Source: Nanobdellota archaeon (GTDB lineage: Archaea; Nanobdellota; Nanobdellia; Parvarchaeales; Parvarchaeaceae). From it: a DNA stretch of 34,973 nt. Shown piece by piece: positions 3,042 to 33,004 of this stretch. The notes under the pieces were generated by a model that made no database searches, was not told where the DNA came from, and saw nothing but the letters and a program-made list of their open reading frames with translations. Made by a program: the position numbers and the translations under genes. The stretch covers positions 1 to 34,973 of the forward strand of contig JAKBJF010000008.1 of assembly GCA_021836125.1 (NCBI GenBank), given 5' to 3'. The number at the start of each line of letters is the position of its first letter. The first letter of the stretch is position 1.

Positions 3042-3572
3042 ATGAAACTTGCGAGGTCATTTTATGCAAGAGACATGCGTACGGTAGCAAGGGCTGCTTG
3101 CAGAGAAATTATGCAACGGCCTCATCTAAATAGTGTTTATTTAAGCAAGTTATGCTCTAATAGAGATATGCATGCTAGAAAAAACATAGAAAGGCTGTTT
3201 CAAAACAGGGACTGGCCTGAATTCACGGACAAGAGGATAAGTGAAGTCGTCGATCGTTTCTACAACCAGTTTGGAAACGCATATGCTGAAAGATTTGGTG
3301 AATCCCTTGGAAGATACTTTTCCTCGCAGCCTAGTGGTTTAAGGGAGCTACAGTCCAGAATAAAAGACCTTTCACTGATTTTTCTGACGTCTGGCTTCAC
3401 AGGGCCTAAACCAAAAGAAAAAATAAAACCTTCTTATGTGATTTACGCTAAAGCTAATGTTGTGCTTTCGCATATGGAACGAGCGCTCAGAAACAAAAAT
3501 TATGCGGATGTAGACTACAAGGAAGAACTTGACAGTATTATAGCTGAGCGCATTAATTATTTTTTCCGCTGA
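3042..3572 (+). CDS. Hypothetical protein, 176 aa
   Basis: I do not recognise this protein. It is 176 residues, basic and probably all-helical: MKLARSFYARDMRTVARAACREIM at the start, then further charged amphipathic helices with aromatic residues (VDRFYNQFGNAYAERFGESLGRYF). It has no membrane helix and no known catalytic motif. The high Arg/Lys content would fit a nucleic-acid or ribosome contact, but this is only a guess. The ATG lies 26 bases from the centre of the TATA element shared with the divergent unknown gene at 2551-2988. Its stop is 12 bases before the convergent ABM-domain gene. Confidence 0.7.
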   Translation: MKLARSFYARDMRTVARAACREIMQRPHLNSVYLSKLCSNRDMHARKNIERLFQNRDWPEFTDKRISEVVDRFYNQFGNAYAERFGESLGRYFSSQPSGLRELQSRIKDLSLIFLTSGFTGPKPKEKIKPSYVIYAKANVVLSHMERALRNKNYADVDYKEELDSIIAERINYFFR

Positions 3573-3583
3573 TTACAGAAGCA

Positions 3584-3880
3584 TCACAACTGCTTTGATT
3601 CGGTAAACATACGGTGCCTCGGAACGCCTTCTATTATCGATCTTCCAGCTTCAACAGTTTTTCTGTAAGCTTCACTCTTAATAAAATTCCTAAAGCCGTC
3701 GTTGTCTTTCCATTCCGTGTATAAAAGGTACTCGTTCTGCTTCTCTACGTCTTTGTAAAGTCTTGCATCTATGCATCCGAAACCCGAGTTTTTAATCGCA
3801 AGAACTGCTTCATTGAATCGCGACTCGAATTCCCGCTCGAAGCCGGGTTTTACAGTGTAATATAGTCCGATGTTTATCAT
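3584..3880 (-). CDS. ABM-domain (antibiotic biosynthesis monooxygenase type) protein
   Basis: This is a 98-residue single-domain protein of the dimeric ferredoxin-like ABM fold: MINIGLYYTVKPGFEREFESRF at the start, then NEYLLYTEWKDNDGFRNFIKSE, the usual S/TEW....F..f..S pattern. ABM proteins include heme-degrading monooxygenases and stand-alone partners of heme enzymes. The ATG at 3880 was chosen because the frame's upstream extension to 4003 lies inside the preceding gene, and this ATG is two bases after that gene's TAG, so translation is probably coupled. The preceding gene is a chlorite-dismutase-like heme enzyme. In haloarchaea these two domains form one protein, PitA, so this looks like the split form. 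Heme handling is inferred from context. Confidence 0.85.
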   Translation of the reverse strand: MINIGLYYTVKPGFEREFESRFNEAVLAIKNSGFGCIDARLYKDVEKQNEYLLYTEWKDNDGFRNFIKSEAYRKTVEAGRSIIEGVPRHRMFTESKQL

Positions 3881-3882
3881 AG

Positions 3883-4527
3883 CTAACCGATTCGTTTTAA
3901 ATATAAAAAGGACTCGTCTTCTATTCCTACAAGCACAGGTTTTTCGTTGGTTATCCATTTTCTCGATTCGGATTGCCTTAATTCTTCCACTACGTGCATC
4001 CAATGCGAAATCGATTCTACTTCGTATAGGACAAGAAATTCATCGTCTGATATACCGAAAGACTTAGTCGTATACGAAATTATTCCGTTGTTGTTAGTGC
4101 TCAGCCTGGCCATAGCTATATGTTCAGACATTATTTTGTTCCTTTTTTCCCTTGGTAGCAGATACCAATCGTTAGATTTTTTCATTGGATAAGCTACAAA
4201 GAATTTGTATTTGACGCTTTCGGAAGGCCCTTTTTTGCATATGGACATAAAACCGTATTCTACAGAAGCGCAATCGCCGAATAATTCTTCAACAAAGAGT
4301 TTAAATTTTAGTATCGTCTCTTCTTTTTTTGAACTTAACCAAAGTATCAAGTCTACATCATACCTGAGCGATGAATATGTCCTTAAAATCGTCCCATCCG
4401 CTTTTTCAATCTGTTTTATTTTATTCTGCAGCGTTAATAATCTGGAACGCCTGCTGATACTAGCTAGTTTCCACCACGCGGGCGTAAGCTTAATCCCAAA
4501 AACGTACATCATCACTTCGTCGTCCAT
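3883..4527 (-). CDS. chdC: Chlorite dismutase-like coproheme decarboxylase (HemQ/ChdC)
   Basis: The family converts coproheme to heme b by oxidative decarboxylation of two propionates, or more broadly binds heme. The key block AYPMKKSNDWYLLPREKR matches HemQ: Tyr113 corresponds to the catalytic Tyr145 and Lys117 to Lys149 of the staphylococcal enzyme. The likely proximal heme ligand is His136 in MSEHIAMA. Downstream, SFGISDDEFLVLYE and VEELRQSESRKW match the family's GLDD.E and LR..E.S blocks. The ATG at 4527 is preferred over an earlier one at 4575, because it follows the hemA TGA by one base and avoids a 47-base overlap. At 214 residues it is slightly short. True chlorite dismutase activity is less likely in a hemA operon. 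Confidence 0.88.
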   Translation of the reverse strand: MDDEVMMYVFGIKLTPAWWKLASISRRSRLLTLQNKIKQIEKADGTILRTYSSLRYDVDLILWLSSKKEETILKFKLFVEELFGDCASVEYGFMSICKKGPSESVKYKFFVAYPMKKSNDWYLLPREKRNKIMSEHIAMARLSTNNNGIISYTTKSFGISDDEFLVLYEVESISHWMHVVEELRQSESRKWITNEKPVLVGIEDESFLYLKRIG

Positions 4528-4528
4528 A

Positions 4529-5443
4529 TCATCGTATGTAAGCAATTTTATCAAGAAAGTGTGCGGTTTCAGCAAGGATTATTTTCTCAGCGGCGGAAAT
4601 ATTGGTTACGGTGACTGAAGACGCCGAGATCTCCTTTATCACATATTCCAAATCAATTACATTGTCGCCTGAAAATGCGATTGGAACCGATAAATCTATT
4701 ATGAGCCTTGGTCCGCTCAGACGCGTATAGTTTCCTCCCTTAATCGCAGAAATAACTATGTCACAGTTTCTTATTTTTGAGAGGTTGAAGTCTGAGTAAT
4801 TAAGTCCGAATAACTCAGCTAACGCAGCAGATTTCTTGGTGTTTCTGCTGAAGATAGTTGCGTTTATAGAGAGCCCTGTTTCTTTCATGTCGTAAAGAAC
4901 GCCCTTAATGACATTGCCGGAACCGACTATCGCTACTTTGTCGCCAGCCCTGTAACTGCTTGAAATATGAGAAGTCACCGCGCCGTATAATCCGCTATTG
5001 TCGCCTATATCTATCTCTCTTCTTATCTTTCTTCCCACCCTCAAAGCATTTTCGAATAAACAAATTAACTGTTTTGAACCGTCGGCTAATGCCCTATAAC
5101 TGTTTAACGCGCTTCTTATCTGACCGATAATCTCCTTTTCACCCAAAATAGCAGAGTCCATGCCAGAAGCTACCCTGAAAACGTGACTTACAACTTTATC
5201 ATCAAAAAGAATCTCTCCAACATTAGGTTTAGAGCGTTCATTCGTTCGTTTTACGTCTGAAAGGCAATGTTCGAGAGATTGTTTGCTGTCTGAATCGCAG
5301 TACAACTCTAGTCTATTGCATGTCTTCAGAAAAAATGGCCTTGCCGCGCCGTTAATCTTTTCGACTATCGGCTCCATATCATAATCATATAACCTGCCCA
5401 AGCGGATGTTTCTATAAGAATAAAGCAGTGCCCCGTAAACCAT
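4529..5443 (-). CDS. hemA: Glutamyl-tRNA reductase, short form
   Basis: HemA reduces glutamyl-tRNA to glutamate-1-semialdehyde, the first committed step of C5 tetrapyrrole (heme, siroheme) synthesis. The catalytic domain shows FLKTCNRLELYC with nucleophile Cys42, then GEKEIIGQIRSAL (101-113) and LFENALRVGRKIRREIDIG (129-147). The NADPH domain begins with VAIVGSGN (170-177). The protein is 304 residues against the usual 400 or so: the C-terminal dimerisation domain is missing and the stop is directly followed by chdC. The usual DLAVPRD motif is DLSVPIA here. It heads the hemA-chdC-ABM operon. A CATATAAAAAGC box at 5463-5474 is about 25 bases before the ATG. Confidence 0.9.
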   Translation of the reverse strand: MVYGALLYSYRNIRLGRLYDYDMEPIVEKINGAARPFFLKTCNRLELYCDSDSKQSLEHCLSDVKRTNERSKPNVGEILFDDKVVSHVFRVASGMDSAILGEKEIIGQIRSALNSYRALADGSKQLICLFENALRVGRKIRREIDIGDNSGLYGAVTSHISSSYRAGDKVAIVGSGNVIKGVLYDMKETGLSINATIFSRNTKKSAALAELFGLNYSDFNLSKIRNCDIVISAIKGGNYTRLSGPRLIIDLSVPIAFSGDNVIDLEYVIKEISASSVTVTNISAAEKIILAETAHFLDKIAYIR

Positions 5444-5462: not shown

Positions 5463-5474
5463 CATATAAAAAGC
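5463..5474 (-). promoter_or_regulatory. TATA box of the hemA-chdC-ABM operon
   Basis: The reverse strand reads GCTTTTTATATG, a strong archaeal TATA element centred about 25 bases before the hemA ATG at 5443. The distance implies that transcription starts at or next to the start codon. Confidence 0.6.
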
Positions 5475-5521: not shown

Positions 5522-6430
5522 TCATGATATGATTATAAGAATTACTCCTGCAATTATCAAAGCCAACCCGGCTATCAGAAGTGGATAATACAACGTTAAA
5601 AAGAAAATCGAGAATATCGCTATACCTACAATTTCTAAACTTACCAGAACATTCCAAAGATCAAGATACTTTTCCTTGAAACGGATTAGAAGTCTAAATG
5701 AAAATTCTTCTGATAACCCGCCCAAAAGCAGAAATCCAGCGACCAAAATAGACAGTAAAACCTCAAGCGACGTTAGACTAAATATCTCCCGAAAAGCTCC
5801 GGTTAACAATCCGTATACTCCGACGGTTAAAAACTCGAATACCCCCATTAACACGTCCGATTTCAGTATGTTATAACCCTTAAACACCATGGAAATGAGC
5901 AGTATATAGTATCCGGCTGTCCAAAAAACTGTCATCAAGGCTGTAAGCAGGATTATTGGCGCTGCAGCATAAAAATCGTATCCATACAGTCCAATAATCT
6001 GAAAGACCAGACCGGCGAATACTGCTATTGTGCCCAAAATTGCAAGCAGCTTAGGGTCTTGTTTTTTCGCCTTTGCGATGAAAAAAACGAAAGGTATGAC
6101 TGAAATATATGAAGCGGAAGCTACAAACGGATAATTCTGGTTCCCTATCAGCGCAAAGAATATTATGGTGCCCAGCCCAAAAAACATCCCTGCTAAAAGG
6201 GAGTACGTGAACAGGCGCTTATTTGATTTTCGTTTGCCCTCTTTTCTATATCCTTTGAACACGAAGACCAACGCCAAAGAAAGGACTGTAAGAGACGCTT
6301 CGAATATGATCAGGTAATCGAAGTAGTTAACTCGGTTCAATGACACGACGACATCACTTAATATAGACCACAATGCATAAGCTACAGAAGCGAACAGTGC
6401 AAGCGCCAGGCCTTTTACAAGTTTGTTCAT
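5522..6430 (-). CDS. EamA/DMT-superfamily-like transporter, about 10 TM
   Basis: The 302-residue protein is a chain of about ten hydrophobic helices with short loops, arranged as two five-helix halves, the layout of EamA drug/metabolite transporters. The first half starts LVKGLALALFASVAYALWSIL, with the small-residue/Trp pattern seen in the first EamA helix, and the fourth helix region holds ASASYISVIPFVFF, like the A..a.l..l.P.f motif. The basic loop YRKEGKRKSNKR probably faces the cytoplasm. The substrate is unknown. It stands alone, 78 bases upstream of the hemA start. The reverse strand has ACTTATTATAGC about 33 bases before the ATG. Assignment below superfamily level is not possible. Confidence 0.75.
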   Translation of the reverse strand: MNKLVKGLALALFASVAYALWSILSDVVVSLNRVNYFDYLIIFEASLTVLSLALVFVFKGYRKEGKRKSNKRLFTYSLLAGMFFGLGTIIFFALIGNQNYPFVASASYISVIPFVFFIAKAKKQDPKLLAILGTIAVFAGLVFQIIGLYGYDFYAAAPIILLTALMTVFWTAGYYILLISMVFKGYNILKSDVLMGVFEFLTVGVYGLLTGAFREIFSLTSLEVLLSILVAGFLLLGGLSEEFSFRLLIRFKEKYLDLWNVLVSLEIVGIAIFSIFFLTLYYPLLIAGLALIIAGVILIIIS

Positions 6431-8176: not shown

Positions 8177-9313
8177 CTAACTTGCTATAACGTTAACGGT
8201 AGCACGTGCGCCTTGATTACCCTGTACGACCAATCTGTAAGTGGAATTGGTAACAAACTTTACCAGTACGTTGTTCTCTCCTAGAAGTATGGGGTTGGAG
8301 AACGTCAGTGTAACACTTTGTCCAGAACTTAAATTGTAGTTTGCATTTTCAAAATTGCTCTCTAATGAGGGGAGTGTAAGCGTTCCATTTTGATTAACTA
8401 GGAAATTGACTGTTCTGAATTCCGCTTGAGCCAAGCCTTCATATTCTACTTCTCTTTCAGATTCGTTTGAACTGTAACTTAAATTTCCGCGTGAACTGTT
8501 ATCGCCGGAGCTAAAATTGCCTGATTGGTCCCTTGAAACGATTCCTGGTGAATTTATTGAAAAGTGATCTGCAACCACTGACTGGTTTCCGAATACTGTG
8601 ACGTGCCTCAAAATAACGCTATTGTTCGAGTTGTCTGTTACGACGACAGATAGTTGTGTCGTATTTCCGACAGTTGACAGTACTGCGTTTGATAATGTTA
8701 TATTGAGCCTTGTTTGATTGAGCGCAAGTTCTTCTTCTCTATTTAAGTCGCGGCGATCTCCTGCTGCAGAGCCTCTCAAAGCCGAATTGCTGACCATTAC
8801 TGCTCTCAGTGATGGTACTAACATAAATCTTGTCGAGTTTCGTGTTAATATCGGCATAACTGTTGGAGAAAGCTGGAGCAAGATGTTAGTTGTGCCATTA
8901 ACGCCGTCATCGCGAAGAACAGATGCGGTAAGCTGATTGTTTGAAAGCGTAACAGGATAAACGGTATTGTTTATTTCAATAGTTGAAGAAGTAACATTGA
9001 ATCTTACAAGGTTTATATATGAACCGTTTTGCAGATACAGCGCCCCTAAAATCGAGCTTACGTTCAACATTGAAAGAAGATTTAAAGTGCCGCTTCCCGC
9101 GACGTTTACCCATCCGCTAGTATTACCTGATATCGTATGCACCATAAGAGAAGAATATGTTATACTGAGACCCTGAGTTCCTATCGGCACGTTCGCAGGG
9201 TCTGTAAGACTAATAAAGACGTTGTTTTGAGCAGGATGATACAGGAAGTACACGAGCAGACCTGCAACTACCAACACTATCGCGACGGTCACTATCAAAC
9301 CGGAATTTTTCAT
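8177..9313 (-). CDS. Membrane-anchored surface protein with DUF4382 domain
   Basis: A single N-terminal membrane helix (SGLIVTVAIVLVVAGLLVYFL) is followed by a 350-residue outside part rich in N-x-S/T sequons, fitting a glycosylated archaeal surface protein. Residues about 32-165 match the DUF4382 pattern: VFISLTDPANVPIGTQGLSITYSSLMVH, then GWVNVAGSGTLNLLSML and a strand carrying IRF-like YINLVRFNV. A Ser/Asn/Glu-rich linker at about 265-290 (SSGDNSSRGNLSYSSNESE) leads to a second beta domain that ends the protein. Its job is unknown; DUF4382 proteins are envelope-associated. A TTTATAAAC box lies about 33 bases before the ATG. It is divergent from the zinc-finger gene. Confidence 0.8.
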   Translation of the reverse strand: MKNSGLIVTVAIVLVVAGLLVYFLYHPAQNNVFISLTDPANVPIGTQGLSITYSSLMVHTISGNTSGWVNVAGSGTLNLLSMLNVSSILGALYLQNGSYINLVRFNVTSSTIEINNTVYPVTLSNNQLTASVLRDDGVNGTTNILLQLSPTVMPILTRNSTRFMLVPSLRAVMVSNSALRGSAAGDRRDLNREEELALNQTRLNITLSNAVLSTVGNTTQLSVVVTDNSNNSVILRHVTVFGNQSVVADHFSINSPGIVSRDQSGNFSSGDNSSRGNLSYSSNESEREVEYEGLAQAEFRTVNFLVNQNGTLTLPSLESNFENANYNLSSGQSVTLTFSNPILLGENNVLVKFVTNSTYRLVVQGNQGARATVNVIAS

Positions 9314-9428
9314 AGCTGTATAATACTGCTATTATATTGTTTGTTTATAAAGTTTTGTGTACAAAAATTTATCGCTGGCTAATTCTTATTATAGAGAACA
9401 CGTGAAATTTATACCGATTTTTAAAAAA

Positions 9429-9440
9429 GTTTTTATATTA
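9429..9440 (+). promoter_or_regulatory. TATA box deciding the zinc-finger gene start
   Basis: GTTTTTATATTA is centred about 25 bases before the ATG at 9459. An upstream in-frame start at 9357 would lie before the promoter, so the shorter 99-residue protein is preferred. Confidence 0.6.
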
Positions 9441-9458
9441 TTGGCTATTAAAATTGAT

Positions 9459-9758
9459 ATGGATTTGTTTGGACATAAACTGAAATGTAAGGTTTGTGGG
9501 GCGGGGTTTAAAACCCAGGCGGAGCTGGATGCTCATGCCAAGACTCACCAACCGCAAGCTGCAGAAGTTCCAGCAGTGTCTACCGGTACGCAGGTTCCTG
9601 CTACGCAGAATGCACCGCAGACACCAAGCGTCCCACCGGCAAAGGCACCGTCCGCCGCATTAAAATGCGAGAAATGCGGTGCTACTTTCAATACAACGGA
9701 AGAACTGGATGCTCATGCCAAGACGCATGCTGGACAGACGGGATCGCAATCTCCTTAA
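9459..9758 (+). CDS. Two-finger C2H2 zinc-finger protein
   Basis: This 99-residue protein carries two canonical C2H2 fingers, C-x2-C-x12-H-x3-H, at residues 10-30 (CKVCGAGFKTQAELDAHAKTH) and 70-90 (CEKCGATFNTTEELDAHAKTH). They are exactly 60 residues apart and joined by an Ala/Pro/Gln-rich flexible linker. Each finger binds one zinc; the protein could bind DNA, RNA or another protein. The fingers share a 20-base identical DNA run (9525-9544 and 9705-9724), so they arose by a rather recent internal duplication. The start at 9459 fits a TATA box 25 bases upstream. The gene stands alone between secreted-protein genes that run the other way; it may be a small regulator. Confidence 0.88.
   Translation: MDLFGHKLKCKVCGAGFKTQAELDAHAKTHQPQAAEVPAVSTGTQVPATQNAPQTPSVPPAKAPSAALKCEKCGATFNTTEELDAHAKTHAGQTGSQSP
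9525..9724 (+). repeat. Intragenic duplication of the zinc-finger module
   Basis: CTGGATGCTCATGCCAAGAC occurs at 9525-9544 and again at 9705-9724, 180 bases apart and in frame. It encodes the LDAHAKT end of each finger. Confidence 0.85.
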
Positions 9759-9885
9759 AAAATCGATAAGGGTTTTTGATTAAGGATTAAAAATATCTGT
9801 CAATGCTTTAAAATTTAATTTTTATTTTTGTATGATTGTGATTTACGCCATTATAAACCCAGTTTTATGCTGTAGTGTTTGAAAT

Positions 9886-11472
9886 TTATATCCCTCCCGA
9901 GGGTGCATCCGTTATACCGTTTGGATTTCTAACGTTCGTTATCGTGCCTACAATACTGTTTGAAGACGTAGATATTATGGATATGCTGTTCGAATTGTAA
10001 TCCGTAACATAAGCATATTCACCATTTGGATTTATTGCAACGGATTGCGGACTTGCGCCGACTGGTATCTGTGCTATTACCGTGTATGTCGATGTGTTTA
10101 TCACATATACGTTGTTCGAGTTCATGTTTACAACATATGCTTCAGTATTGTCGGGGGATATTGCAACACTATAAGGATATGTTCCTACGGATATATTTTT
10201 TATGACATTATAATTCGATAAATTTATTACTGATACTGTATTTGAGCCATCGTTCGTCACCAGCGCATACGCTCCATCCGATGCCACTGCAATGCTTGTC
10301 GGTGCGGAACCTACGCGTATAGAATGTATCTTGCTCAAAGTCAACGGGCTAACGACAGCTACGGAATCGTTGGTATTCTGCGCAACGAAAACCAGACCTG
10401 AAATCGGAGATATGGCGATGCCGTCTGGTGCGCCCCCTATTTTAGATGAGGATATAGTCGATAAATCCGAGGTGTTTATCGAATAAAGATAACCTCCACC
10501 ACCATAAGCGGTGTCATATGCGATTGTTCCGTTATAATTTATGGTAACCCCAAACTGGTTAGTGCCTATAGACAGGTTGGATATCACCTTGTTCAGGTTC
10601 GTGTCTATAACGGAAATAAATGCGTTACCGTGGCTCGTGACATAGACATAATGACCGCTCGGTGTTACAGCTATCCCGAACGGGTTGCTTGTTACGGTTA
10701 TGTTTCTTACGATAGTGTTGGTGTTCGTGTTTATAGCGGAAACTGTTGAAGAACCGCCGTTCGCTACAAACATATCGCGTATCGGTATAAAATCTACTAT
10801 TAGCGTATTGTTTATCAAAACACCTGAAGCGGCAGTGGGATAGTATACTACTCCGTTTATCGTGGTATTTTCTATAAGGAATTGTTCTCCACCGAGATTA
10901 AGAAAGGACAGGACGCCCCCGCCGGAACTTTTTCCCTGCCCATCATAACTTACAAACCAGACTGCTCCTGCAGGAAGGCCGTACTCCATAAATGTTATTT
11001 CGTTTACTGAAGTCGCCTTTCCGGAAATCGTTCCTGTTGCCTTATATTTTAGTAATCCTGACGATGTACTTTCTCCGTATAACACGGATATAACCGAACT
11101 ATAAAAGTTTCCCGTGGTACAACTGGTATTGTAGAAGACTAGATTAAAATTCTGACCCGGAGCAACGGTCGTATTTAGCTGAGTTGTGCTGCTCGTCGAT
11201 GTATATTGTGCACTTAGAATAGAAGCATTGAAAATTGTGACTGTAGTGCCTATAGAATTTCCCAGTTTTACAACCATTCCAACAGGGCTGCAGTACTGAG
11301 AAAGAAATGTGAAAGGCGCAAATCCCGTGGCGGCCTGAACAGAGGTGTTAACCGGTGAAAATATGCCCATAGTGTACAATATCGCAGCTACTAACACTAT
11401 TATCAGTATCGCCCAGCCGTAGGTCATCATGTACTCTAATGAGGATTGGGCCGTTCTATGATGTAAAAGCAT
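9886..11472 (-). CDS. Class III signal (pilin-type) protein with seven-bladed YVTN beta-propeller
   Basis: The N-terminus, residues 8-35, reads AQSSLEYMMTYGWAILIIVL, an archaeal class III prepilin signal followed by the hydrophobic pilin helix; a prepilin peptidase should cut near the Gln. Residues about 40-230 form a Thr/Ser-rich beta segment with G-x-x-W-F-V-S-Y-D-like strands. From about 233 to 528 there are seven YVTN/YncE-type blades, for example YVYVTSHGNAFISVID, YALVTNDGSNTVSVINL and AYVVNMNSNNVYVIN, which should close as a propeller. The product is probably a surface or pilus-linked adhesion or binding protein. A fusion of a pilin-type stalk to a propeller is notable. An AAGATATAAGG box lies about 30 bases upstream. 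Confidence 0.88.
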   Translation of the reverse strand: MLLHHRTAQSSLEYMMTYGWAILIIVLVAAILYTMGIFSPVNTSVQAATGFAPFTFLSQYCSPVGMVVKLGNSIGTTVTIFNASILSAQYTSTSSTTQLNTTVAPGQNFNLVFYNTSCTTGNFYSSVISVLYGESTSSGLLKYKATGTISGKATSVNEITFMEYGLPAGAVWFVSYDGQGKSSGGGVLSFLNLGGEQFLIENTTINGVVYYPTAASGVLINNTLIVDFIPIRDMFVANGGSSTVSAINTNTNTIVRNITVTSNPFGIAVTPSGHYVYVTSHGNAFISVIDTNLNKVISNLSIGTNQFGVTINYNGTIAYDTAYGGGGYLYSINTSDLSTISSSKIGGAPDGIAISPISGLVFVAQNTNDSVAVVSPLTLSKIHSIRVGSAPTSIAVASDGAYALVTNDGSNTVSVINLSNYNVIKNISVGTYPYSVAISPDNTEAYVVNMNSNNVYVINTSTYTVIAQIPVGASPQSVAINPNGEYAYVTDYNSNSISIISTSSNSIVGTITNVRNPNGITDAPSGGI

Positions 11473-11582
11473 ATGATTTATCTGCTCTTATTCCTTATAT
11501 CTTTGGAATCCCATTCGCGTATTGACTGCATTCTTTTACAAAAAGATGTAAAAATTTACACTTGGAATAAACTCGCGCGGCG

Positions 11583-12488
11583 CTACGTAATATTTATGTA
11601 TGCTGGCTTTGAAAGTAGTGCGCTTGTCGATAATGGCGCAAATGATATTGTCGTATCCTTCAAATTTTCTATGAATGTAGTGTTCACGAAACCGATTCCG
11701 GGCTCTATGAATTCTGACGTAATGTTGATACTTGAAAACATTGCCGTTCCAGAATAATCTGATATGCATACAGTATTTTTTATATGAACCGAATAAGTGT
11801 CATTCGATTGGTAGTGCTGGACGTAGTCACCGCTTACATTCATTAGAGAACACGTGTAACCCAGATAACTTTCCGTTTTAATAAATTTTGTGTTTATGTT
11901 GGAGTTGTTTATTTGCGCTCCCTGAACAACGTTAGCAAGGGACAGATTCTCTATTAAAGAATTAAGATAGGCAGTATACCCTGTGGATGAAAGCGAATAA
12001 TAAGGACAGTCTACAGAATTTACGCTCTTGTTTAAAACGCTACTGCATTTGACGTATCCGCTGTCATTAAGCAAGTAAAATGACCTAAGCACGTAGTGAT
12101 TAAACTGTCCAGATATATTGTTGATCTCCGTACCGAAAGAGGACGTTTTCAGGAGTCTTCCCGACTTGGAGAAAATTCCGGACGCAGACCCGTTTGTATA
12201 AACCTTGGTCAAATTCGGGCTGGTCGCATGAGACGAAATGGTTTTAATGCTAAAATTTGCGAGCAACGACATGTTGATATTACTGATGTTTGAAAGAAGT
12301 CCGTAGGATATGTTTAGCATCTGTTTCATGTTAGTGACTGCTGAAAACGACTGATTGCGAGCTTGATTGGTGTTTTGCGCTGTACTATTGGACTGCAGAG
12401 CATTAGACGGAGAATTAGGAAAAAGTAATATTACCCCAGCGATAACGACAATGACTACGACAATGACGACGATTAATAGACTGTTCAT
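11583..12488 (-). CDS. Membrane-anchored, glycosylation-rich surface protein
   Basis: I do not recognise a family. The first 23 residues (MNSLLIVVIVVVIVVIAGVILL) form a single membrane helix or uncleaved signal anchor. The remaining 275 residues are rich in Asn, Ser and Thr with many N-x-S/T sites (NIS, NMS, NFS, NLT, NLS), so the body is probably outside and glycosylated. Several cysteines (KCSS, DCPYYS, YTCSLM, NTVCIS) could form disulfides. The start is supported by AGTTTAAATCCG centred about 25 bases before the ATG. It lies upstream of, and in the same direction as, the pilin-propeller gene, 110 bases away, suggesting a shared envelope theme rather than one operon. Confidence 0.75.
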   Translation of the reverse strand: MNSLLIVVIVVVIVVIAGVILLFPNSPSNALQSNSTAQNTNQARNQSFSAVTNMKQMLNISYGLLSNISNINMSLLANFSIKTISSHATSPNLTKVYTNGSASGIFSKSGRLLKTSSFGTEINNISGQFNHYVLRSFYLLNDSGYVKCSSVLNKSVNSVDCPYYSLSSTGYTAYLNSLIENLSLANVVQGAQINNSNINTKFIKTESYLGYTCSLMNVSGDYVQHYQSNDTYSVHIKNTVCISDYSGTAMFSSINITSEFIEPGIGFVNTTFIENLKDTTISFAPLSTSALLSKPAYINIT

Positions 12489-12548
12489 ATTCTGATTAAA
12501 AACTGAACGGATTTAAACTTTTTTAGTTTTTGGAGTTTATGACACGTC

Positions 12549-13181
12549 CTATATAAAACCCAGCCATAACAACACTATCCCGATGAATTCGGAATAATAC
12601 AAAAAAGAGGGAAAACTAGCGATATAAAGCGTGCCTGCAACACTTACAACCACGACTCCAGTTATTATGGATAACAGTTTATTACTGTGCCTCTTTCTGT
12701 ATCCCATAGCCGCAACGACTATCAGAATAATCGCTGCTGGAAAGGTCGCTATCGAAGATGCTAGCGTTACGATCAGCGGTGGAGGACCTTCTACAACGTA
12801 ATTTAAGAGCATGTTTTTGATACCAGGCATGGCGACGGAATACAGGGTAAATACGGCTGATGCCGCAAAAAATATTGAATAGTAACGGACAAATTTTCTA
12901 TTCTTTAGAAGATATAACGAACCCAAAGCCAAAAATTCGACGAGTATCGCGACTATGAAAAGATATGCAGCCATTAGCGCATCTGAATATATACCAAATG
13001 CGAAGATTATTTCCAAAAGTGCGCCGATGGTAAAACACCATAATCCTAATGACCAAAAAAGATGACTTTTACTTTTGGTTTTTGCGTATTTTACAGTTAA
13101 CATTGCTGCGAGCAGCAACGAAAGAACGAAAATGATTATTGTAGATAGCTGTAGGAACCACTGAGATGATAATATGTCCAT
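12549..13181 (-). CDS. Seven-TM membrane protein of unknown function
   Basis: About seven helices span the whole protein: WFLQLSTIIIFVLSLLLAAM, LFWSLGLWCFTIGALLEIIF, AAYLFIVAILVEFLALGSLY, YSIFFAASAVFTLYSV, PPLIVTLASSIATFPAAIIL, LSIITGVVVVSVAGTLYIA and a last YYSEFIGIVLLWLGFI. I see no retinal-binding Lys in the last helix, so it is not a rhodopsin, and no transporter signature. The ATG at 13181 is preferred over an in-frame GTG at 13202, because a CATATAAATAG TATA box ends directly before that GTG and is about 28 bases from 13181. It is a single gene. Charged residues are mostly in the TM1-2 and TM3-4 loops. Confidence 0.75.
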   Translation of the reverse strand: MDILSSQWFLQLSTIIIFVLSLLLAAMLTVKYAKTKSKSHLFWSLGLWCFTIGALLEIIFAFGIYSDALMAAYLFIVAILVEFLALGSLYLLKNRKFVRYYSIFFAASAVFTLYSVAMPGIKNMLLNYVVEGPPPLIVTLASSIATFPAAIILIVVAAMGYRKRHSNKLLSIITGVVVVSVAGTLYIASFPSFLYYSEFIGIVLLWLGFI

Positions 13182-13238
13182 TTGATACTTAGTAATAATC
13201 ACTATTTATATGCGCGGCAGATGCAGCACGTAGTTAGC

Positions 13239-14087
13239 CTAAGAAAAAAACCCTTGCGGATTGATGTTTAAATATGAATGGCTTATTGCTGGGGCCTCAG
13301 GTATTATCTTATTTGCGAACCCATTTAAGCCGTTCGTGACATAAGTATAACCTTGTTTAAGTTTGTTAGTCATATACATGTAAGCACCGGTTGTTTCTTT
13401 CTTTACCGCGGCGATGGCACTGTCGACTCCATTTTGTATCCTTGTGCCGATGCCCTTGGCCCATGTCTTGACTTTTTCTGAATTTTTATATAGCCACAAT
13501 CCTGCCTTTACTCCCCCATAAACTGCAAGCGAAAGCAGGCCTAGCACATAGCCCGCAAGGAGTCCTGGTATGAATGATGGAGCGTTTACCAGATTTGCCA
13601 AGCCCCCGTACGCAGTGTGCTTGAAAGCATTTATTCTCCATCCCCAGTCTGCTTTTGGCAGAGGGTACACGGGTTTTCCTGCGGCTATTGACGCGGATGA
13701 ATAATCCATGCCTACGGCGTTTGCAGGACCAGTAATAAGATTCGCAAGGTTTTCCTTCTTAGATGCCTTAGGATTGTGAAGTGCTAAAGCACCGGCTCCA
13801 AAGTCGCCTGCCATAAGTCCCACTTGATACAATTGTGATGATATTGGAAATACGAATTGCAATAAATTCGGCATGTATTTTCCGAGCCATTTGCCCGCCT
13901 TGGTTGCGTAACCATCAATGCTTTTCGGATGGAGAGCATCAAATGCACCAAGGCCTATGCAGGAGAGAAGGAATTTCCCGGCTCTCTTTGCGCCACTCTT
14001 AAAGCCCTGATATAATGGCGTTTTTGTGGCCACGCTCACGGCCGGATTACGGGCTTTTGCAAGTATTGTCTCTATGTTGTTTTTCAT
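13239..14087 (-). CDS. Glycine-rich membrane-associated protein, unknown
   Basis: This 282-residue protein is not recognised. It has three or four moderately hydrophobic, glycine-rich segments: FLLSCIGLGAFDAL, LLQFVFPISSQLYQVGLMAG and FIPGLLAGYVLGLLSLAVYG. These are separated by basic stretches (KNNIETILAKARNP, KASKKENL), and the tail has amphipathic helices (RIQNGVDSAIAAVKKETTGAYMYMTNKLKQGYTY). The pattern resembles a membrane-associating or pore-like protein, but no family match is evident and no function is proposed. The ATG at 14087 follows an ACTATAAATAATT promoter box at 14122-14134. The upstream in-frame ATG at 14150 lies before that box and is unlikely. Confidence 0.68.
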   Translation of the reverse strand: MKNNIETILAKARNPAVSVATKTPLYQGFKSGAKRAGKFLLSCIGLGAFDALHPKSIDGYATKAGKWLGKYMPNLLQFVFPISSQLYQVGLMAGDFGAGALALHNPKASKKENLANLITGPANAVGMDYSSASIAAGKPVYPLPKADWGWRINAFKHTAYGGLANLVNAPSFIPGLLAGYVLGLLSLAVYGGVKAGLWLYKNSEKVKTWAKGIGTRIQNGVDSAIAAVKKETTGAYMYMTNKLKQGYTYVTNGLNGFANKIIPEAPAISHSYLNINPQGFFS

Positions 14088-14207
14088 AACGATATCTATA
14101 ATCTTAACTATGATGGGATTGACTATAAATAATTCAGTTTGCCCATGCAAAACGCGGATATCCGTTTTTGGAGGCTATAATTTCCGGTCGGTGAATTAAG
14201 AAATATG

Positions 14208-14288
14208 GGCTGATGATGTATTAAGAGTGTACTTCGACGATCGCTGCCTAAAAAGCGGCATGATGTTATGTGCATTAAAATACTGATA
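14208..14288 (+). ncRNA. Possible C/D-box-like small RNA (weak)
   Basis: Before the GH15 gene there are two ATGATGT elements (14213-14219 and 14260-14266) and a CTGA at 14283-14286, arranged as C, C-prime and D boxes would be. Between them GCTGC...GCGGC can pair. No clear D-prime box is seen and both C-type boxes deviate from RTGATGA, so this is a weak call. Confidence 0.2.
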
Positions 14289-14333
14289 TAATAAAATAGT
14301 TATAATCTGCGTACAACCATATGTTTTAGTGTT

Positions 14334-14340
14334 AAAGGAG
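14334..14340 (+). promoter_or_regulatory. Shine-Dalgarno site of the GH15 gene
   Basis: AAAGGAG lies five bases before the ATG at 14346. An A/T box, TAAAATAGTTATAAT, at about 14292-14306 could be its promoter, leaving a short leader. Confidence 0.65.
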
Positions 14341-14345
14341 ATACG

Positions 14346-16118
14346 ATGAAATCTATAAAGGAATTAAAAGAAACGGGAATGGTCAGCAATAACATAACAG
14401 CCGCACTTATAAACAGCGATGGCTCGGTTGAGTGGATGCCAATGCCTAGGTTCGATTCTTCACCAGTTTTCTGTTCAATCTTAGACGACAAAGTCGGTGG
14501 GAAATGCACCGTTGGCGTGGGAGATTTGAGGGGCAAACAGGAATATATAGCACCAAACATATTGAAGACTGTCTTTAAATCAAAAGATGCGGAAAGCAGC
14601 GTTACAGACTTTCTTATTCCAGTGAAACCGATGCTTATACGCGAGATAAAATCGGATGTGGAAATGAACGTAAACATATTGCCCACTTTCAATTATGGCA
14701 AATGTGCGGGGACTGCAGAAAAACGCGATAATTCTATAGTTTTCAGAAATCCGCAGGGGAAGGATTTTTTGGAGGTTATTTTTGATAGCCTCGAGGTAAA
14801 AAGCAAGAGTCTTTCAGAATTTACCGTAAATGGTTTTGGACAGATAAGACTTGAGTATTTTATTGACGAAGCACATAAAGAAAATGAAACTAAGGTAGCG
14901 CAATCCTCCTCGCCTTCACAAAGCCTTGACCACTCCCTTAAATATTGGGAAGGCATGCTTCCACCCGATGGAATAATGGGTCTCCCCGATGGACCTATAG
15001 AAATACCGCAGAACGTGTTGCTTCTTTACCAACGTTCACTTTCTGTTATGCTTGGGCTTATGTACAGTCCCTCTGGGAGCATCATAGCTGCGCCCACTAC
15101 ATCCTTGCCAGAGTCGATAGGCAAGCAATGGAATTGGGATTATAGGTACTCCTGGGTTAGAGATTCGTCCATGATGGCTGAAGCACTAATAAAATCCGGC
15201 ATGGTTGTGCATGGAAGGAGAATAATAGAATTCTTTTTAGGCTTGATAAACTATTCCGGAAAGCCCTTTATACCATTTTATGGTGTCGGCGGTACTAGGC
15301 CAGATCATGAAAGACAAATACCATGGCTCTCCGGGCTTATGAATTCAAAGCCGGTGCGTGTAGGCAATCATGCAGAAGAACAGATACAGCTGGACGCGGA
15401 AGGGGAATTCATGAATGCTCTTACGGCTTATTATAAAGCGACCAAAGACAAAGTTTTCATAAAAGTCAACTGGCGTGCTGTAGAACAAATAGCATCATGG
15501 ATAAACTCAAACTGGGAACTTGATGATAATGGGCCTTGGGAAGAGCCGTTCCGCCAGAACTTCACATATTCAAAGGTATTGATGTGGGTTGCCCTGGATT
15601 GTGCTGAGTATCTCGGTAACGAAATAGGCGTTGATGTCACTGAAATAAAATCAAACAAGGAGAAGATAAAAGCATGGATAATCGATAACTGTATAAAAAA
15701 AGGCGTAATCGTCAAGCATTCATTCACTGACGACATTGACGCCGCACTTCTGGTGCTTCCGCTGCATGGATTTATAGATGTCGATAGTGACGTTTTCAAG
15801 AAAACCCTCAAGAAGATAGAAACCGACCTCACAGACAAAGGATTGGTGTACAGGTATAAACTTCAAGAAAAGGACCGGCCAAACCACCCGTTCGTTCTGT
15901 GTTCCTCCTGGCTCAGCAGAGTGTATACTCTTTTAGGCAGACAAGAAGACGCATTAGCCGTCCTTGAAAAGATAGCTGATTCCTGCGGTCCATTAAAGCT
16001 TCTCGGCGAGAATATAGATTCAAAAAATTCAATGTTTCTCGGGAATTTTCCACAGGGGTTCGCGCATGCCGGAGTAGTTATGGCACTAAAAGACATATAC
16101 GATAAAGCAAACAAATGA
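14346..16118 (+). CDS. Glycoside hydrolase family 15 (glucoamylase or trehalase)
   Basis: GH15 enzymes release glucose by inverting hydrolysis from starch-like glucans or trehalose. The 590-residue length and two-part layout fit: an N-terminal beta domain (about 1-220) and an (alpha/alpha)6 barrel. Signatures are WNWDYRYSWVRDSSMMAEAL (family WDYRY.WvRDa), then PWEEPFRQNFTYSKVLMWVALD, where Glu399/Glu400 hold the general acid. Near the C-terminus LGENIDSKNSMFLGNFPQGFAHAG has Glu555 in the place of the catalytic base. There is no signal peptide, so it is cytosolic, acting on stored glycogen, maltodextrin or trehalose. Some Thermoplasmatales GH15 proteins are trehalases, so the substrate is open. 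A strong AAAGGAG precedes the start. Confidence 0.92.
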   Translation: MKSIKELKETGMVSNNITAALINSDGSVEWMPMPRFDSSPVFCSILDDKVGGKCTVGVGDLRGKQEYIAPNILKTVFKSKDAESSVTDFLIPVKPMLIREIKSDVEMNVNILPTFNYGKCAGTAEKRDNSIVFRNPQGKDFLEVIFDSLEVKSKSLSEFTVNGFGQIRLEYFIDEAHKENETKVAQSSSPSQSLDHSLKYWEGMLPPDGIMGLPDGPIEIPQNVLLLYQRSLSVMLGLMYSPSGSIIAAPTTSLPESIGKQWNWDYRYSWVRDSSMMAEALIKSGMVVHGRRIIEFFLGLINYSGKPFIPFYGVGGTRPDHERQIPWLSGLMNSKPVRVGNHAEEQIQLDAEGEFMNALTAYYKATKDKVFIKVNWRAVEQIASWINSNWELDDNGPWEEPFRQNFTYSKVLMWVALDCAEYLGNEIGVDVTEIKSNKEKIKAWIIDNCIKKGVIVKHSFTDDIDAALLVLPLHGFIDVDSDVFKKTLKKIETDLTDKGLVYRYKLQEKDRPNHPFVLCSSWLSRVYTLLGRQEDALAVLEKIADSCGPLKLLGENIDSKNSMFLGNFPQGFAHAGVVMALKDIYDKANK

Positions 16119-16161
16119 CTTCTAGTATTCCGCGTAAGCTACGCATCATAGTGACCAGTAT

Positions 16162-17232
16162 TCAAACAAAAATACAATAACTCTTGTCACTTTCTCCATA
16201 AAACCAGCTTTTTACAATGCTTTCGTTAATCCCTGGATTTTGCTTTGCCTGTAACCCTATCTTCGTGTTTCCCATCCTTATTTTAGTGGCCCCTATTTCT
16301 TCAAATATCTGTGCTATGCCAGTATCGCCTGCGACTACGTATTCTACCCCGAGTTTCCTTGCAATGCATACTGCTGTGAGGAGTCCTAGTTTTACTGCGC
16401 CGTAGCCGTCAATGTAATTCCACCTGTACAGATCATGTATATACTGCTGATTTTTATCCCGGTTTGCACCTTCTATTATATCTATGTAAAGGTAATACCT
16501 GCCGTGTTTGTCTTTGCCTAAGAAACACCTGCAGAAGGCTTTTGTAACATCCTCGTTCAACTTCCCTGCTGGCTTCTCACATTTAATGCCTAAACGGCCC
16601 ATAACATCTGTATAAAATATTTTAACCCCCGAATATACTTCCTTAAGCGTACGCAGTCTTCCATCTTTGGTACCTAACTTATCACAAAGAACTGAAAGCC
16701 AATTCTTCTGTTCTTCATGAACTGGTCCTTTGATGAATTTGCGTGGATAAACTTCATACACTATTGTGCCTCCGTTTAATTTGCAGTCCTCTGCCAGCAT
16801 TTGGCTGTACCGCTTCACCTGATTGCCATACCAGCATATATCACATGACTCTGCCATGTCCGCTATTTTCGTCCATTTGTCGCTCATGGGGTTAAAAAAG
16901 GCAGTCCTGTAATTGTTGTGCGTGGTGTTAAACAACACACCGTAAGCTTCTTCCTCTTTCTTTGAAAGATTCACATCGCTACTTATGGTCTTTTTGTATT
17001 TTTGCCGGGATACAATGCCTATGCGCTCTATTATATCGTCAAGTTTGCTTAGTTTCTGTCTTTTTTCACCGGAATTTGGTATTCTTATCTCTTTGGATTC
17101 TATCTTGCTCTTTACTGTTTGGGGATACTCAAGCAAATAGCGTGCCGCCAGCTCCAGTTCTTCCTCTTTTGGTACCTCGGCCAGTAAATCATACAAGCGC
17201 CCCTTCAAATGAACGTCTCTATTCTCTTCCAT
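16162..17232 (-). CDS. Hypothetical protein, possible GNAT-like C-terminal fold
   Basis: This 356-residue soluble protein is not recognised. The N-terminal 90 residues are charged helices; the middle has cysteines in SCDICWYGN and FCRCFLGKD. The C-terminal third, GYGAVKLGLLTAVCIARKLGVEYVVAGDTGIAQIFEEIGATKI, resembles the helix-strand layout after the CoA site of GNAT acyltransferases, but the R/Q-x-x-G-x-G/A loop is not clear, so this is only a hint. The ATG at 17232 is chosen because reverse-strand GAGGT sits 10 bases before it. The longer frame to 17292 would overlap the upstream small gene, whose stop is 22 bases before this start. The two probably form one operon. Confidence 0.72.
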   Translation of the reverse strand: MEENRDVHLKGRLYDLLAEVPKEEELELAARYLLEYPQTVKSKIESKEIRIPNSGEKRQKLSKLDDIIERIGIVSRQKYKKTISSDVNLSKKEEEAYGVLFNTTHNNYRTAFFNPMSDKWTKIADMAESCDICWYGNQVKRYSQMLAEDCKLNGGTIVYEVYPRKFIKGPVHEEQKNWLSVLCDKLGTKDGRLRTLKEVYSGVKIFYTDVMGRLGIKCEKPAGKLNEDVTKAFCRCFLGKDKHGRYYLYIDIIEGANRDKNQQYIHDLYRWNYIDGYGAVKLGLLTAVCIARKLGVEYVVAGDTGIAQIFEEIGATKIRMGNTKIGLQAKQNPGINESIVKSWFYGESDKSYCIFV

Positions 17233-17254
17233 AAAAAGCCAGACCTCTTGTTTT

Positions 17255-17515
17255 CTAGCTTCTAGACAAAGCAGAATATAGGTTAATTGCACCGATGGCG
17301 AGAAATGGCAGTGAAGCCGGGAATCCTACAATAAACGACATACCGCAGCAATAAACGACCAAAGCACCGCGCAGTATTCCGCACGTAGTGCTGTTTAATC
17401 CACACGCGACTTTGTTCTTTGACCTTGTGTAAAAGCTACTGCAATAATTGAGGAAACTGTCTTTTAAAGAAATCTCGTCTTCTCCAACGAAATCATCTAA
17501 ACTTCTACTTGCCAT
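17255..17515 (-). CDS. Small Cys-rich membrane protein, 86 aa
   Basis: No family is recognised. The N-terminal 35 residues are acidic and polar (SLDDFVGEDEISLKDSF). The C-terminal half holds one or two hydrophobic segments (GALVVYCCGMSFIVGFPASLPFLAIGAINLYSAL), with five cysteines in the protein. The ATG at 17515 has a clear Shine-Dalgarno GGAGGCG seven bases upstream (17523-17529), good evidence that this short frame is translated. It precedes the unknown gene at 16162-17232 by 22 bases, so the two are probably co-expressed. The layout (acidic N-terminus, hydrophobic C-terminus, strong SD) resembles the broken small gene at 17993-18335. Confidence 0.72.
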   Translation of the reverse strand: MASRSLDDFVGEDEISLKDSFLNYCSSFYTRSKNKVACGLNSTTCGILRGALVVYCCGMSFIVGFPASLPFLAIGAINLYSALSRS

Positions 17516-17992
17516 AAACCATCGCCTCCGAATGGGGAAGAATCGCCTATAGCCATTGCATAGCTATGGTATGGTTGAAGGACCGTAGCCCTTCCTATTT
17601 CGGCAAATTTTTCTTAGTTTAGTTCACCTTCACATGAATATATGGCAGTTCTAGTATATACGCTTTTATAGAGGACTACTTAATAATAATCAGATATTAA
17701 CAAAGGTTGCTGCGATGATGAATGCGTCTTCATACCAAGTAACTTGATATAACTTAAATTCTACGTTTATTCGCCGTAAACATGGGGCAATTACATGAAC
17801 TTAAAACCGCACTGCTGTGAGCGCAAGGAGAAGTGGAAGTCATGATCAATTTAGTATAAGAATAGGGAACAGTCCTATAAAGTTTATTGCAGCTTCGATA
17901 AGTATAGATATGGCTACGGAACTTCTTTCCTTACCGCATAAAATTATTGTTATACGGGCCCTCTTCCAGTAGATTCATCGGGCGATTCGCTT
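17516..17992. other. Intergenic stretch without a clear gene
   Basis: These 477 bases hold the SD and probable promoter of the 17515 gene, a small inverted repeat GAAGG-8-CCTTC at about 17576-17593, and no start-bearing frame that I trust. On the reverse strand 17846-17974 is an open 42-residue hydrophobic frame, in phase with the membrane segment ending at 17993 but separated from it by two stops and lacking a start codon. It might be decayed coding DNA. Confidence 0.4.
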
Positions 17993-18157
17993 TTAGCCTA
18001 CAAATAGCCTTGTCGCAGCAAGTGATATCAGTACGAGCCTAAGCGATTCCGGTTCTAACTCTGCTCGCTCTGCCAATACAAGCAGCACCACCGCAAATAC
18101 TATCCCAAAAAATGGCAAAAGAGGCATAGTTACTGTCCAAAATAGACTGGACAACAT
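17993..18157 (-). CDS. Possible membrane segment, +1 frame continuation of the 18335 gene
   Basis: The frame open from 18313 to 17993 has a coding-like hydrophobic end from Met at 18157: MLSSLFWTVTMPLLPFFGIV, then FAVVLLVLAERAELEPESLRLVLISLAATRLFVG. This gives two short membrane helices around an acidic loop. There is no Shine-Dalgarno site before 18157. The well-led upstream gene (ATG 18335) runs in a frame one base different and stops at 18183. The pieces joined would give a protein of about 110 residues, with a polar N-terminus and membrane C-terminus like the neighbour at 17255-17515. A frameshift, true or from sequencing error, is therefore possible. Low certainty. Confidence 0.35.
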   Translation of the reverse strand: MLSSLFWTVTMPLLPFFGIVFAVVLLVLAERAELEPESLRLVLISLAATRLFVG

Positions 18158-18182
18158 GCAAAACGAGCGGTTTTCGTGCAGA

Positions 18183-18335
18183 TTAGAAAGTCTGCTTGGG
18201 GTGATAAATTGGCTTTGCTGTTGAGAACATGCGCCCAAAAAGCCATTGACTTTGGTTCTCCGTAGTGCTTCTCTGCAGCACGCCGAATTCAACGCGGTTA
18301 TCCGCCAATTCATTTTCTACTACTTCACTTTCCAT
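18183..18335 (-). CDS. Small SD-led protein, 50 aa, perhaps frameshifted
   Basis: The ATG at 18335 is preceded by the best Shine-Dalgarno site in the window, reverse-strand AAAGGAGGTA ending six bases before it. The product starts MESEVVENELADNRVEFG and is polar and acidic, without a membrane helix, ending at a TAA at 18183. No family is recognised. Directly after, in the +1 frame, comes a hydrophobic stretch that looks coding (17993-18157), so this may be the first half of a gene broken by a frameshift. The promoter probably lies in the A/T-rich DNA at about 18420-18540. Its likeness in layout to the gene at 17255 suggests a family of small membrane proteins. Confidence 0.5.
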   Translation of the reverse strand: MESEVVENELADNRVEFGVLQRSTTENQSQWLFGRMFSTAKPIYHPKQTF

Positions 18336-18340
18336 TTCGT

Positions 18341-18350
18341 TACCTCCTTT
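18341..18350 (-). promoter_or_regulatory. Very strong Shine-Dalgarno site
   Basis: The reverse strand reads AAAGGAGGTA, near-perfect complementarity to a 16S rRNA 3' end, and is followed by ACGAA and the ATG at 18335. It makes translation of this small frame likely even though its product is unknown. Confidence 0.75.
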
Positions 18351-18675
18351 ATTTGCGGTAAAAAAGCAAAGAAATCCAAAATAAGTGTGAACTAAAGAGT
18401 AAAAACCCAACAAATTATCTTTTTTTGGCTCAAAAAGCTCAAGATAAATAGGAGTAGGTCTGCCACTTAAAAAACTTAGGATTTAAAACCCTCTCCATAA
18501 ACTATTATTATAAGCGTGTCTGTTTATAAGCTTTTTAATTAAAATATCTTAAAGTGGGGCAACATCGTAACTGCTTTGATCATAAGCACAGATGCCGAAG
18601 AATAAATGCGCGTTACGAACCTAAGTCTGCACTCGAAAGTTTTTTTAATTTCAGAATATACTAAGAGTGCTTGCG
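18351..18675. other. A/T-rich gene-free stretch
   Basis: I see no gene here. It separates the large CWB2-type protein gene from the small SD-led gene transcribed in the same direction. It has several TATA-like words (for example TTATTATAAGC and TTTATAAGC near 18503-18535) that could serve the 18335 gene. Confidence 0.4.
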
Positions 18676-23413: not shown

Positions 23414-23821
23414 ATGCATAAGGACATAATCAAACGACTTATAGAGGAAGATCCGTTCCTTAAGAACGTGGGCATAAAAGTAATGTCCGTTTCTAAGGGT
23501 AGATGCAAAATAGCAGTGGAATTTAAGGAAGAGCTGACAAGGACCGGCGGCATTATGAATGGAGGTGCAATAGCTACTCTTGCAGATGCCACGGGGGGAT
23601 GCGCGGTGCTAACGCAGAATGAGGGAAGAAATCAGGTCACCGTTGATTTAAGTATTTCTTTTCTGAACCCTATTGAAAATGGCCCTGTCATCGCAGAAGG
23701 ACACGTTACAAGGACTGGAAAAAGATTATCGTTCGCGTATATAGAGATATTCGACGGAAAGGGCAAACTGTGTGCGACTGCGCACGGGACTTGGTTCTTT
23801 ATCGGCGGACTTAATCAATAA
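23414..23821 (+). CDS. PaaI-family hotdog acyl-CoA thioesterase
   Basis: The 135-residue single hotdog domain contains GGIMNGGAIATLADATGGCAV (45-65), the PaaI/4HBT helix region that binds the acyl-CoA, with the catalytic-type Asp58. The usual HGG is NGG here (Asn49), a change at a position often used to hold the thioester oxygen. The following VTVDLSISFLNPIENGPVIAEGHV is standard. It probably hydrolyses acyl-CoA to release CoA, useful beside a beta-oxidation operon. The ATG has a CTTAAAGTATAAAATG box about 31 bases before it. Its last 7 bases overlap the end of the convergent acyl-CoA dehydrogenase gene. Confidence 0.9.
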   Translation: MHKDIIKRLIEEDPFLKNVGIKVMSVSKGRCKIAVEFKEELTRTGGIMNGGAIATLADATGGCAVLTQNEGRNQVTVDLSISFLNPIENGPVIAEGHVTRTGKRLSFAYIEIFDGKGKLCATAHGTWFFIGGLNQ

Positions 23822-24927: not shown

Positions 24928-24936
24928 ATTTGTCCC

Positions 24937-26055: not shown

Positions 26056-26056
26056 T

Positions 26057-27238: not shown

Positions 27239-27239
27239 G

Positions 27240-29210: not shown

Positions 29211-29213
29211 TGT

Positions 29214-29552: not shown

Positions 29553-29571
29553 AACTATAATTAAAGTTGCG

Positions 29572-29588
29572 TATTAATAAATATATCG
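29572..29588 (-). promoter_or_regulatory. TATA box of the SCP2-led beta-oxidation operon
   Basis: Reverse-strand CGATATATTTATTAATA is centred about 28 bases before the SCP2 ATG at 29552, so the five-gene operon probably starts here with a leaderless first gene. The palindrome at 29590-29603 abuts its upstream side, where the BRE would lie. Confidence 0.6.
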
Positions 29589-29589
29589 T

Positions 29590-29603: not shown

Positions 29604-29655
29604 GGTTGATTCTGCGGCTATTACTTAATCAAGAGTTTAAGTAGGCTGTCACATG

Positions 29656-29668: not shown

Positions 29669-29678
29669 TTATCTGGAA

Positions 29679-33003: not shown

Positions 33004-33004
33004 C

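Follow-up and report, generated by a model that had tools for sequence, protein, structure and literature searches.

We lean towards the reading that the archaeon studied here has a front-truncated heme pathway of the coproporphyrin-dependent type that runs on imported coproporphyrin III, and that a three-gene operon in the analysed stretch of DNA holds the last enzyme of this pathway. The operon encodes a short glutamyl-tRNA reductase (HemA), a coproheme decarboxylase (ChdC) and a stand-alone ABM-domain protein. A ferrochelatase (HemH) is encoded on another contig of the same genome, and HemB, HemC and HemE, expected between HemA and HemH, are missing from nearly all genomes of the genus. All functions discussed here were assigned from sequence.

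A compact operon of hemA, chdC and abm

The window, that is, the whole stretch of 34,973 nucleotides that was analysed, corresponds to contig 33 in an assembly of 800 kb with 66% completeness. The source, a tiny archaeon of acid mines, is treated here as a member of Candidatus Parvarchaeota, an ARMAN-type DPANN lineage; given the background on this group, it is probably host-dependent. Positions 3584-5443 hold three intact, co-directional genes on the minus strand, with two TATA-like elements.

hemA, 4529..5443, minus strand: 304 aa, PF05201 (7e-26), predicted glutamyl-tRNA reductase without the C-terminal dimerisation domain
chdC/hemQ, 3883..4527, minus strand: 214 aa, Chlor_dismutase PF06778 (2.5e-34), predicted coproheme decarboxylase
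abm, 3584..3880, minus strand: 98 aa, ABM PF03992 (2.5e-14), stand-alone, candidate heme acceptor or ChdC partner
TATA-like box TTTTTATA, 5465..5472, minus strand: 29 nt upstream of the hemA start, consensus match only
second copy of the TATA-like 8-mer TTTTTATA, 3902..3909, minus strand: 29 nt upstream of the abm start, within the 3' end of chdC, consensus match only

The coordinates (5443-4529, 4527-3883 and 3880-3584) leave spacers of 1 and 2 bases and bear out the three-gene operon described in the first-pass annotation. The spacing of the TATA-like box before hemA suggests a leaderless archaeal transcript starting at hemA. Because the second copy lies 29 nt before abm, this gene may also be transcribed alone, from an internal promoter of its own. 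A scan for sigma-70 promoters and terminators gave counts at chance level. The next gene downstream of abm (3042-3572) is convergent to the operon, and a DMT-like transporter gene upstream (5522-6430) was rejected as part of the pathway, since it was seen next to hemA in this species alone. Elsewhere, the window contains a cluster for fatty-acid beta-oxidation and ETF (23815-34888), in which an Fe-S oxidoreductase (33005-34888) has an N-terminal part that looks membrane-anchored, and a region (8180-20787) with several large proteins, of which those of 378, 270, 217 and 703 aa were tested and had no Pfam match; the last of these starts with a signal-like segment.

The hemA product matches GlutR_N (PF05201, 7e-26) and NAD(P)-binding models, and the GlutR dimerisation domain (PF00745) was absent in the Pfam comparison, in agreement with its earlier description as a short HemA. 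Its best NCBIfam model is glutamyl-tRNA reductase (NF000752, 1.3e-48), but at 166 bits vs a cut-off of 381. T41, C42, R44, E46, H87, G101, E102 and Q108 are invariant in seven genus members, and the active-site residues Cys42 and His87 are thus kept.

The decarboxylase has the residues and fold of ChdC

The solved protein closest to the window ChdC is Thermoplasma TA0507 (3DTZ), followed by actinobacterial coproheme decarboxylases. Its AlphaFold2 model (pLDDT 89.8) superposed with a TM score of 0.86 on 3DTZ and of about 0.8-0.86 on ChdCs. When Corynebacterium diphtheriae ChdC (CdChdC) was mapped onto it, after removing a 2-residue offset of the PDB chain record that was inferred from the position of W183Y there, Y135 corresponded to Y113, R139 to K117, W143 to W121, H158 to H136, T172 to T153 and R208 to R189. 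We take H158 of CdChdC to be the proximal His. Y113, K117, W121, H136 and T153 are invariant in 21 archaeal ChdC homologues, and the R189 position is Arg in 18 and His in 3 of them. The three residues that had been singled out earlier, Tyr113, Lys117 and His136, match the catalytic Tyr, the propionate-binding Lys/Arg and the presumed proximal His.

The roles of Y135, R139, R208 and W143 in CdChdC have been described (PMC9953210). At the position of the catalytic Tyr of ChdCs, chlorite dismutases carry Ile (PMC7611857); the presence of Tyr113 therefore marks the window protein as ChdC-type and not a chlorite dismutase. The actinobacterial distal His118 had no counterpart in the window ChdC in a profile alignment, and since this residue is specific to actinobacterial ChdC (PMC9953210), it would be dispensable for the wider family.

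The pathway ends are present and the middle is missing

A gene for HemH was found on another contig of the same genome (C12:7141-7998, 4e-62), so its tetrapyrrole genes extend beyond hemA and the refuting condition that the first-pass annotation had named on this point did not arise. The genus HemH profile scored 236 bits against the Listeria coproporphyrin ferrochelatase and 132 against human ferrochelatase, and His172 and Glu248, which presumably form the catalytic pair of the family, are invariant. We classify this protein as a coproporphyrin-type ferrochelatase (CpfC). On the same strand, 98 bases downstream of hemH, lies an AhbD-like radical SAM/SPASM gene (G000:C12:8106-9200, L029) that matches TIGR04053 over its cut-off (464 bits); as a candidate anaerobic coproheme decarboxylase it was rejected, as it scores below the AhbD cut-off and does not track HemH (p 0.36).

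ChdC was searched for in genome contigs with an alignment-based scan, which matched, and with a single-sequence scan, which gave nothing. It occurs in 15 of 27 genus genomes and was seen in none of the other genera sampled from the class; ferrochelatase occurs in 12/28, our genome included. The two co-occur (11/4/1/11; Fisher p 0.0014, which is only indicative among related genomes), and ChdC stands without ferrochelatase in four genus genomes, one of them 98% complete (G004). Together with the coproporphyrin-type ferrochelatase in the same genome and the intact catalytic residues, this co-occurrence argues for the coproporphyrin-type last step that the first-pass annotation had suggested; the same evidence likewise upholds its link of the ChdC-ABM pair to heme supply. 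Less well supported is the use of hemA as the tie, given that the intervening enzymes HemB, HemC and HemE are missing.

HemB was found in none of the 28 genus genomes, including ones 90-100% complete; HemC and HemE were each found in one of 28, the same genome (G006), and CgoX in none over the TIGR00562 cut-off. G006 carries HemC-HemD, HemE and HemH beside ChdC and ABM, and its ferrochelatase belongs to a different clade. Since the HemC and HemE models matched G006 at 7e-83 and 5e-100, their sensitivity is good and genus versions are recognisable. A universal gene would escape detection in all 15 ChdC-positive genomes through incompleteness alone with a probability of about 2e-13, so incompleteness cannot explain the absence of HemB. 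Half of the genus (14/28) encodes cytochrome bd subunit I, a predicted user of heme; CydA showed no co-distribution with ChdC (Fisher p 0.45), and our 66%-complete genome yielded no match to it.

HemA is present in 11 of the 28 genomes. It co-occurs with HemH (9/10, Fisher p 0.0008) and with ChdC (Fisher p 0.014), both p values being only indicative among related genomes, and directly adjoins HemH in several of them. A NUDIX gene was seen near hemA in one locus (L034). The dN/dS ratios in close pairs were 0.02-0.17 for all four genes and about 0.15 for HemA, so HemA is not a decaying relic. A HemL candidate on contig C27 of our genome was rejected: it scores better as a GntE-type transaminase (487 vs 414 bits for HemL), has two aldehyde dehydrogenase genes as neighbours and a distribution that does not follow that of ChdC. 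HemA is under purifying selection, yet its retention without HemL or HemB is not explained by a salvage pathway.

The ABM protein is a constant neighbour of ChdC in the genus

In each of the 16 ChdC loci of the genus, an ABM gene lies directly beside chdC. The two genes are convergent and overlap at their ends in one set of genomes, where ChdC stands beside FtsZ and NUDIX genes; at L031 (2084-3239) and similar loci, the NUDIX gene directly precedes chdC next to ftsZ, and a pirin gene follows. HemH, HemA, ChdC and ABM form a single run in genome G021 (L037). The coupling of the pair behind hemA, as described earlier, therefore holds in the window but is a minority arrangement elsewhere in the genus. 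The adjacency of ChdC and ABM survives rearrangement, which favours a functional link above chance. In Thermoplasmata, Sulfolobales and Micrarchaeota loci, ABM was not found beside ChdC. One genome (G009; C24 and C12, L030 and L044) has two different ChdC-ABM pairs, possibly from a strain mixture or a duplication.

The AlphaFold2 model of the window ABM (pLDDT 85.6) has LsrG and SnoaB as its nearest folds. Trp57 is invariant, and the Asn and His positions of the IsdG-type Asn/Trp/His triad look different, as judged by eye only. All 17 genus ABMs matched NF007124 (PRK09565, "heme-binding protein"), of which the window copy covers the last ~90 positions; the family also matched the heme-degrading HmuQ model. 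From its name, length and description, we take NF007124 to be the model of haloarchaeal PitA. It matched only 1 of 16 genus ChdCs (E 0.007), and in a tree of modest support without PitA sequences the genus ChdC groups with the stand-alone ChdCs of Micrarchaeota and Thermoplasmata. On plasmids, a search for PitA returned bacterial ChdC only, with no ABM match. The label "split PitA" fits only in part: the ABM protein resembles the PitA ABM domain, the model matches speak against the same for the ChdC, and descent of the pair from PitA by splitting is at most a candidate origin.

PitA and the window pair share a ChdC and an ABM side by side, the window ABM being most like the ABM part of PRK09565. 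PitA is, however, a fusion with a His-rich linker and a 200-aa ABM domain, whereas the window has separate genes with a 2-base spacer, no His-rich linker and a single ABM of 98 aa; besides PitA, haloarchaea possess the Ahb route. For PitA, heme was found bound to the purified ABM domain, a proposed acceptor of heme from the ChdC part of the protein; cells deleted for pitA showed poor growth in air, which heme restored (PMC5746218). By analogy, it is plausible that the window ABM is a heme-accepting partner of ChdC.

Coproporphyrin-route genes in other archaea

Of the ChdC carriers outside the genus, 21 archaeal genomes were compared: ferrochelatase is present in 12 of them, 10 of the 11 Thermoplasmata among these, and in none of the Sulfolobales tested. 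HemE adjoins HemH in the five intact Thermoplasmata loci inspected (L123, L124, L126-L128), and with one Crenarchaeota MAG (L121) such pairs are seen in ChdC carriers outside haloarchaea. In one of the ten ferrochelatase-positive Thermoplasmata, Thermogymnomonas acidicola, hemH has in-frame stops (G115:C4:45260-46041) and chdC is split over two frames (L113, 9950-10601), through decay of the route or assembly errors. A Micrarchaeota MAG holds ChdC, HemH, HemE, HemD and HemC in one stretch (L078, 9980-14163), a nearly complete coproporphyrin route in a second DPANN-type lineage. The occurrence of HemE-HemH and ChdC in Thermoplasmata and Micrarchaeota means that genes of this route are present in acidophile communities, and Thermoplasmata could be suppliers of coproporphyrin. 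Thermoplasmata are known hosts of ARMAN-type archaea, as reported for Mia14, and no complete heme gene set was reported for Cuniculiplasma itself (PMC5498576). An origin of the genus ferrochelatase in Thermoplasmata was unsupported by the tree, in which the Thermoplasmata ferrochelatases form a separate clade.

Discussion

According to the salvage pathway that we prefer, the cell would lack tetrapyrrole ring synthesis by any known route and would import coproporphyrin III, or else coproheme, from the surrounding community. CpfC would insert iron into coproporphyrin III, ChdC would decarboxylate propionates 2 and 4 via Tyr113 and H2O2 to yield heme b, and ABM, which probably receives the ChdC product, would bind the heme once released or protect it, a role already proposed for the corresponding domain of PitA. 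The absence of CgoX would be expected here, because imported porphyrin is already oxidised. No porphyrin transporter for the import was identified. HemA is a point against a pure salvage route, in which it would be useless, and non-homologous proteins may replace HemB, HemC and HemE. The four genus genomes with ChdC and no ferrochelatase, and the lack of tracking between CydA and ChdC, also count against this pathway.

HemA would find a use if the pathway were divided between two archaeal cells, the symbiont contributing an unregulated truncated HemA together with CpfC, ChdC and ABM as heme carrier, and a Thermoplasmata host performing the middle and returning coproporphyrin. We regard this as quite unlikely, and give the same low credence to its more detailed form, in which glutamate-1-semialdehyde or ALA made by HemA leaks to the host and is turned into coproporphyrin by the middle enzymes there. 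The kept active site of HemA, its purifying selection, its co-occurrence with HemH (as a direct neighbour in several genomes) and the absence of HemB everywhere would all fit, and in Gram-positive bacteria loss of GtrR/HemA control raises porphyrin intermediates (PMC10991733); but HemL was not found, the HemL-like gene being better placed as a GntE-type transaminase that does not track ChdC, and no exporter is known. That the complete pathway is present and was missed, either in the gaps of genomes such as ours (66% complete) or as divergent genes, is very improbable: G006 does keep HemC-HemD, HemE and HemH beside ChdC and ABM, but it is also the only genome where HemC and HemE were seen, so the models can detect genus versions, and HemB was seen in none of the 28, some of which are 90-100% complete.

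Another reading separates ChdC and ABM from synthesis altogether and assigns them to heme repair, peroxide handling or heme sensing, with heme itself imported. It is unlikely in our view, even though ChdC occurs without ferrochelatase in Sulfolobales, a Desulfurococcaceae genome and four genus members, and although the ABM family has matches to heme-degrading HmuQ models as well. The full catalytic set of ChdC, with the Tyr and the propionate-binding residues, speaks for decarboxylation, as do the co-occurrence and the one four-gene run with a coproporphyrin-type ferrochelatase, and coproheme in Sulfolobales could come from the siroheme route. The absence of CgoX over cut-off in all 28 genomes might instead be read as a sign that ABM is a cofactor-free oxidase that replaces it and converts coproporphyrinogen to coproporphyrin, since SnoaB and other cofactor-free monooxygenases that act on easily oxidised substrates are among its nearest folds. 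We hold the probability of this to be small: the closest curated models are heme-binding or heme-degrading, the PitA ABM domain was purified with heme (PMC5746218), and an imported porphyrin would already be oxidised.

To judge by family, fold and catalytic residues, the salvage pathway ends in the same two enzymes (CpfC and ChdC) as the coproporphyrin-dependent pathway of Firmicutes and Actinobacteria, the genus ferrochelatase being nearest to the coproporphyrin type; it differs in that HemB, HemC, HemE and CgoX are lacking in nearly all members, HemA is truncated and ABM is a neighbour. Thermoplasmata, which provide the closest solved ChdC homologue and also carry HemE-HemH, differ from the genus in having no ABM adjoining ChdC, a full-length HemA and ferrochelatases of a separate clade. 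In Staphylococcus aureus, CpfC and ChdC have a partner of the ABM fold, IsdG, which interacts with both according to the account of Videira 2018 given in PMC10991733; IsdG degrades heme, whereas its catalytic residues were judged, by inspection only, to be lost from the window ABM.

The protein families, ChdC in archaea and the haloarchaeal coproporphyrin route are already known. The first-pass annotation contrasted a coproporphyrin-type step with the siroheme route expected in an archaeon; such a step is supported here but is not itself new, being known from haloarchaea (PMC5746218, PMC11459464). A survey lists genes of the route in haloarchaea and one Hydrothermarchaeota genome (PMC11459464), partial heme genes in DPANN are listed in PMC8407392, and heme pathways are mentioned for some Micrarchaeota (PMC12892359). 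In a search of openly accessible literature, we found no report of Parvarchaeota that keep the CpfC-ChdC end of the pathway while lacking its front. Genes of the coproporphyrin route are now seen in Thermoplasmata, Micrarchaeota and Parvarchaeota, beyond the groups of that survey.

The heme supply of heme-using DPANN archaea has puzzled earlier work: the ARMAN archaeon Mia14 encodes a cytochrome bd although heme genes were not found in it, and its heme was suggested to be exogenous or made by a pathway not yet known (PMC5498576). Mia14 and the present genus are alike as acidophilic DPANN archaea related to heme users and without a complete heme pathway, but Mia14, a member of Micrarchaeota, has no heme genes at all, whereas in the Parvarchaeota genus the terminal two steps remain. 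The genus thereby offers a concrete alternative to the earlier suggestions: with ring synthesis missing and iron insertion and coproheme decarboxylation kept, the traded molecule would be coproporphyrin and not heme. Between bacteria, coproporphyrin is already known to act as a growth factor (Bhuiyan 2016, as cited in PMC11139205), and it could serve as one for the cultivation of these archaea.
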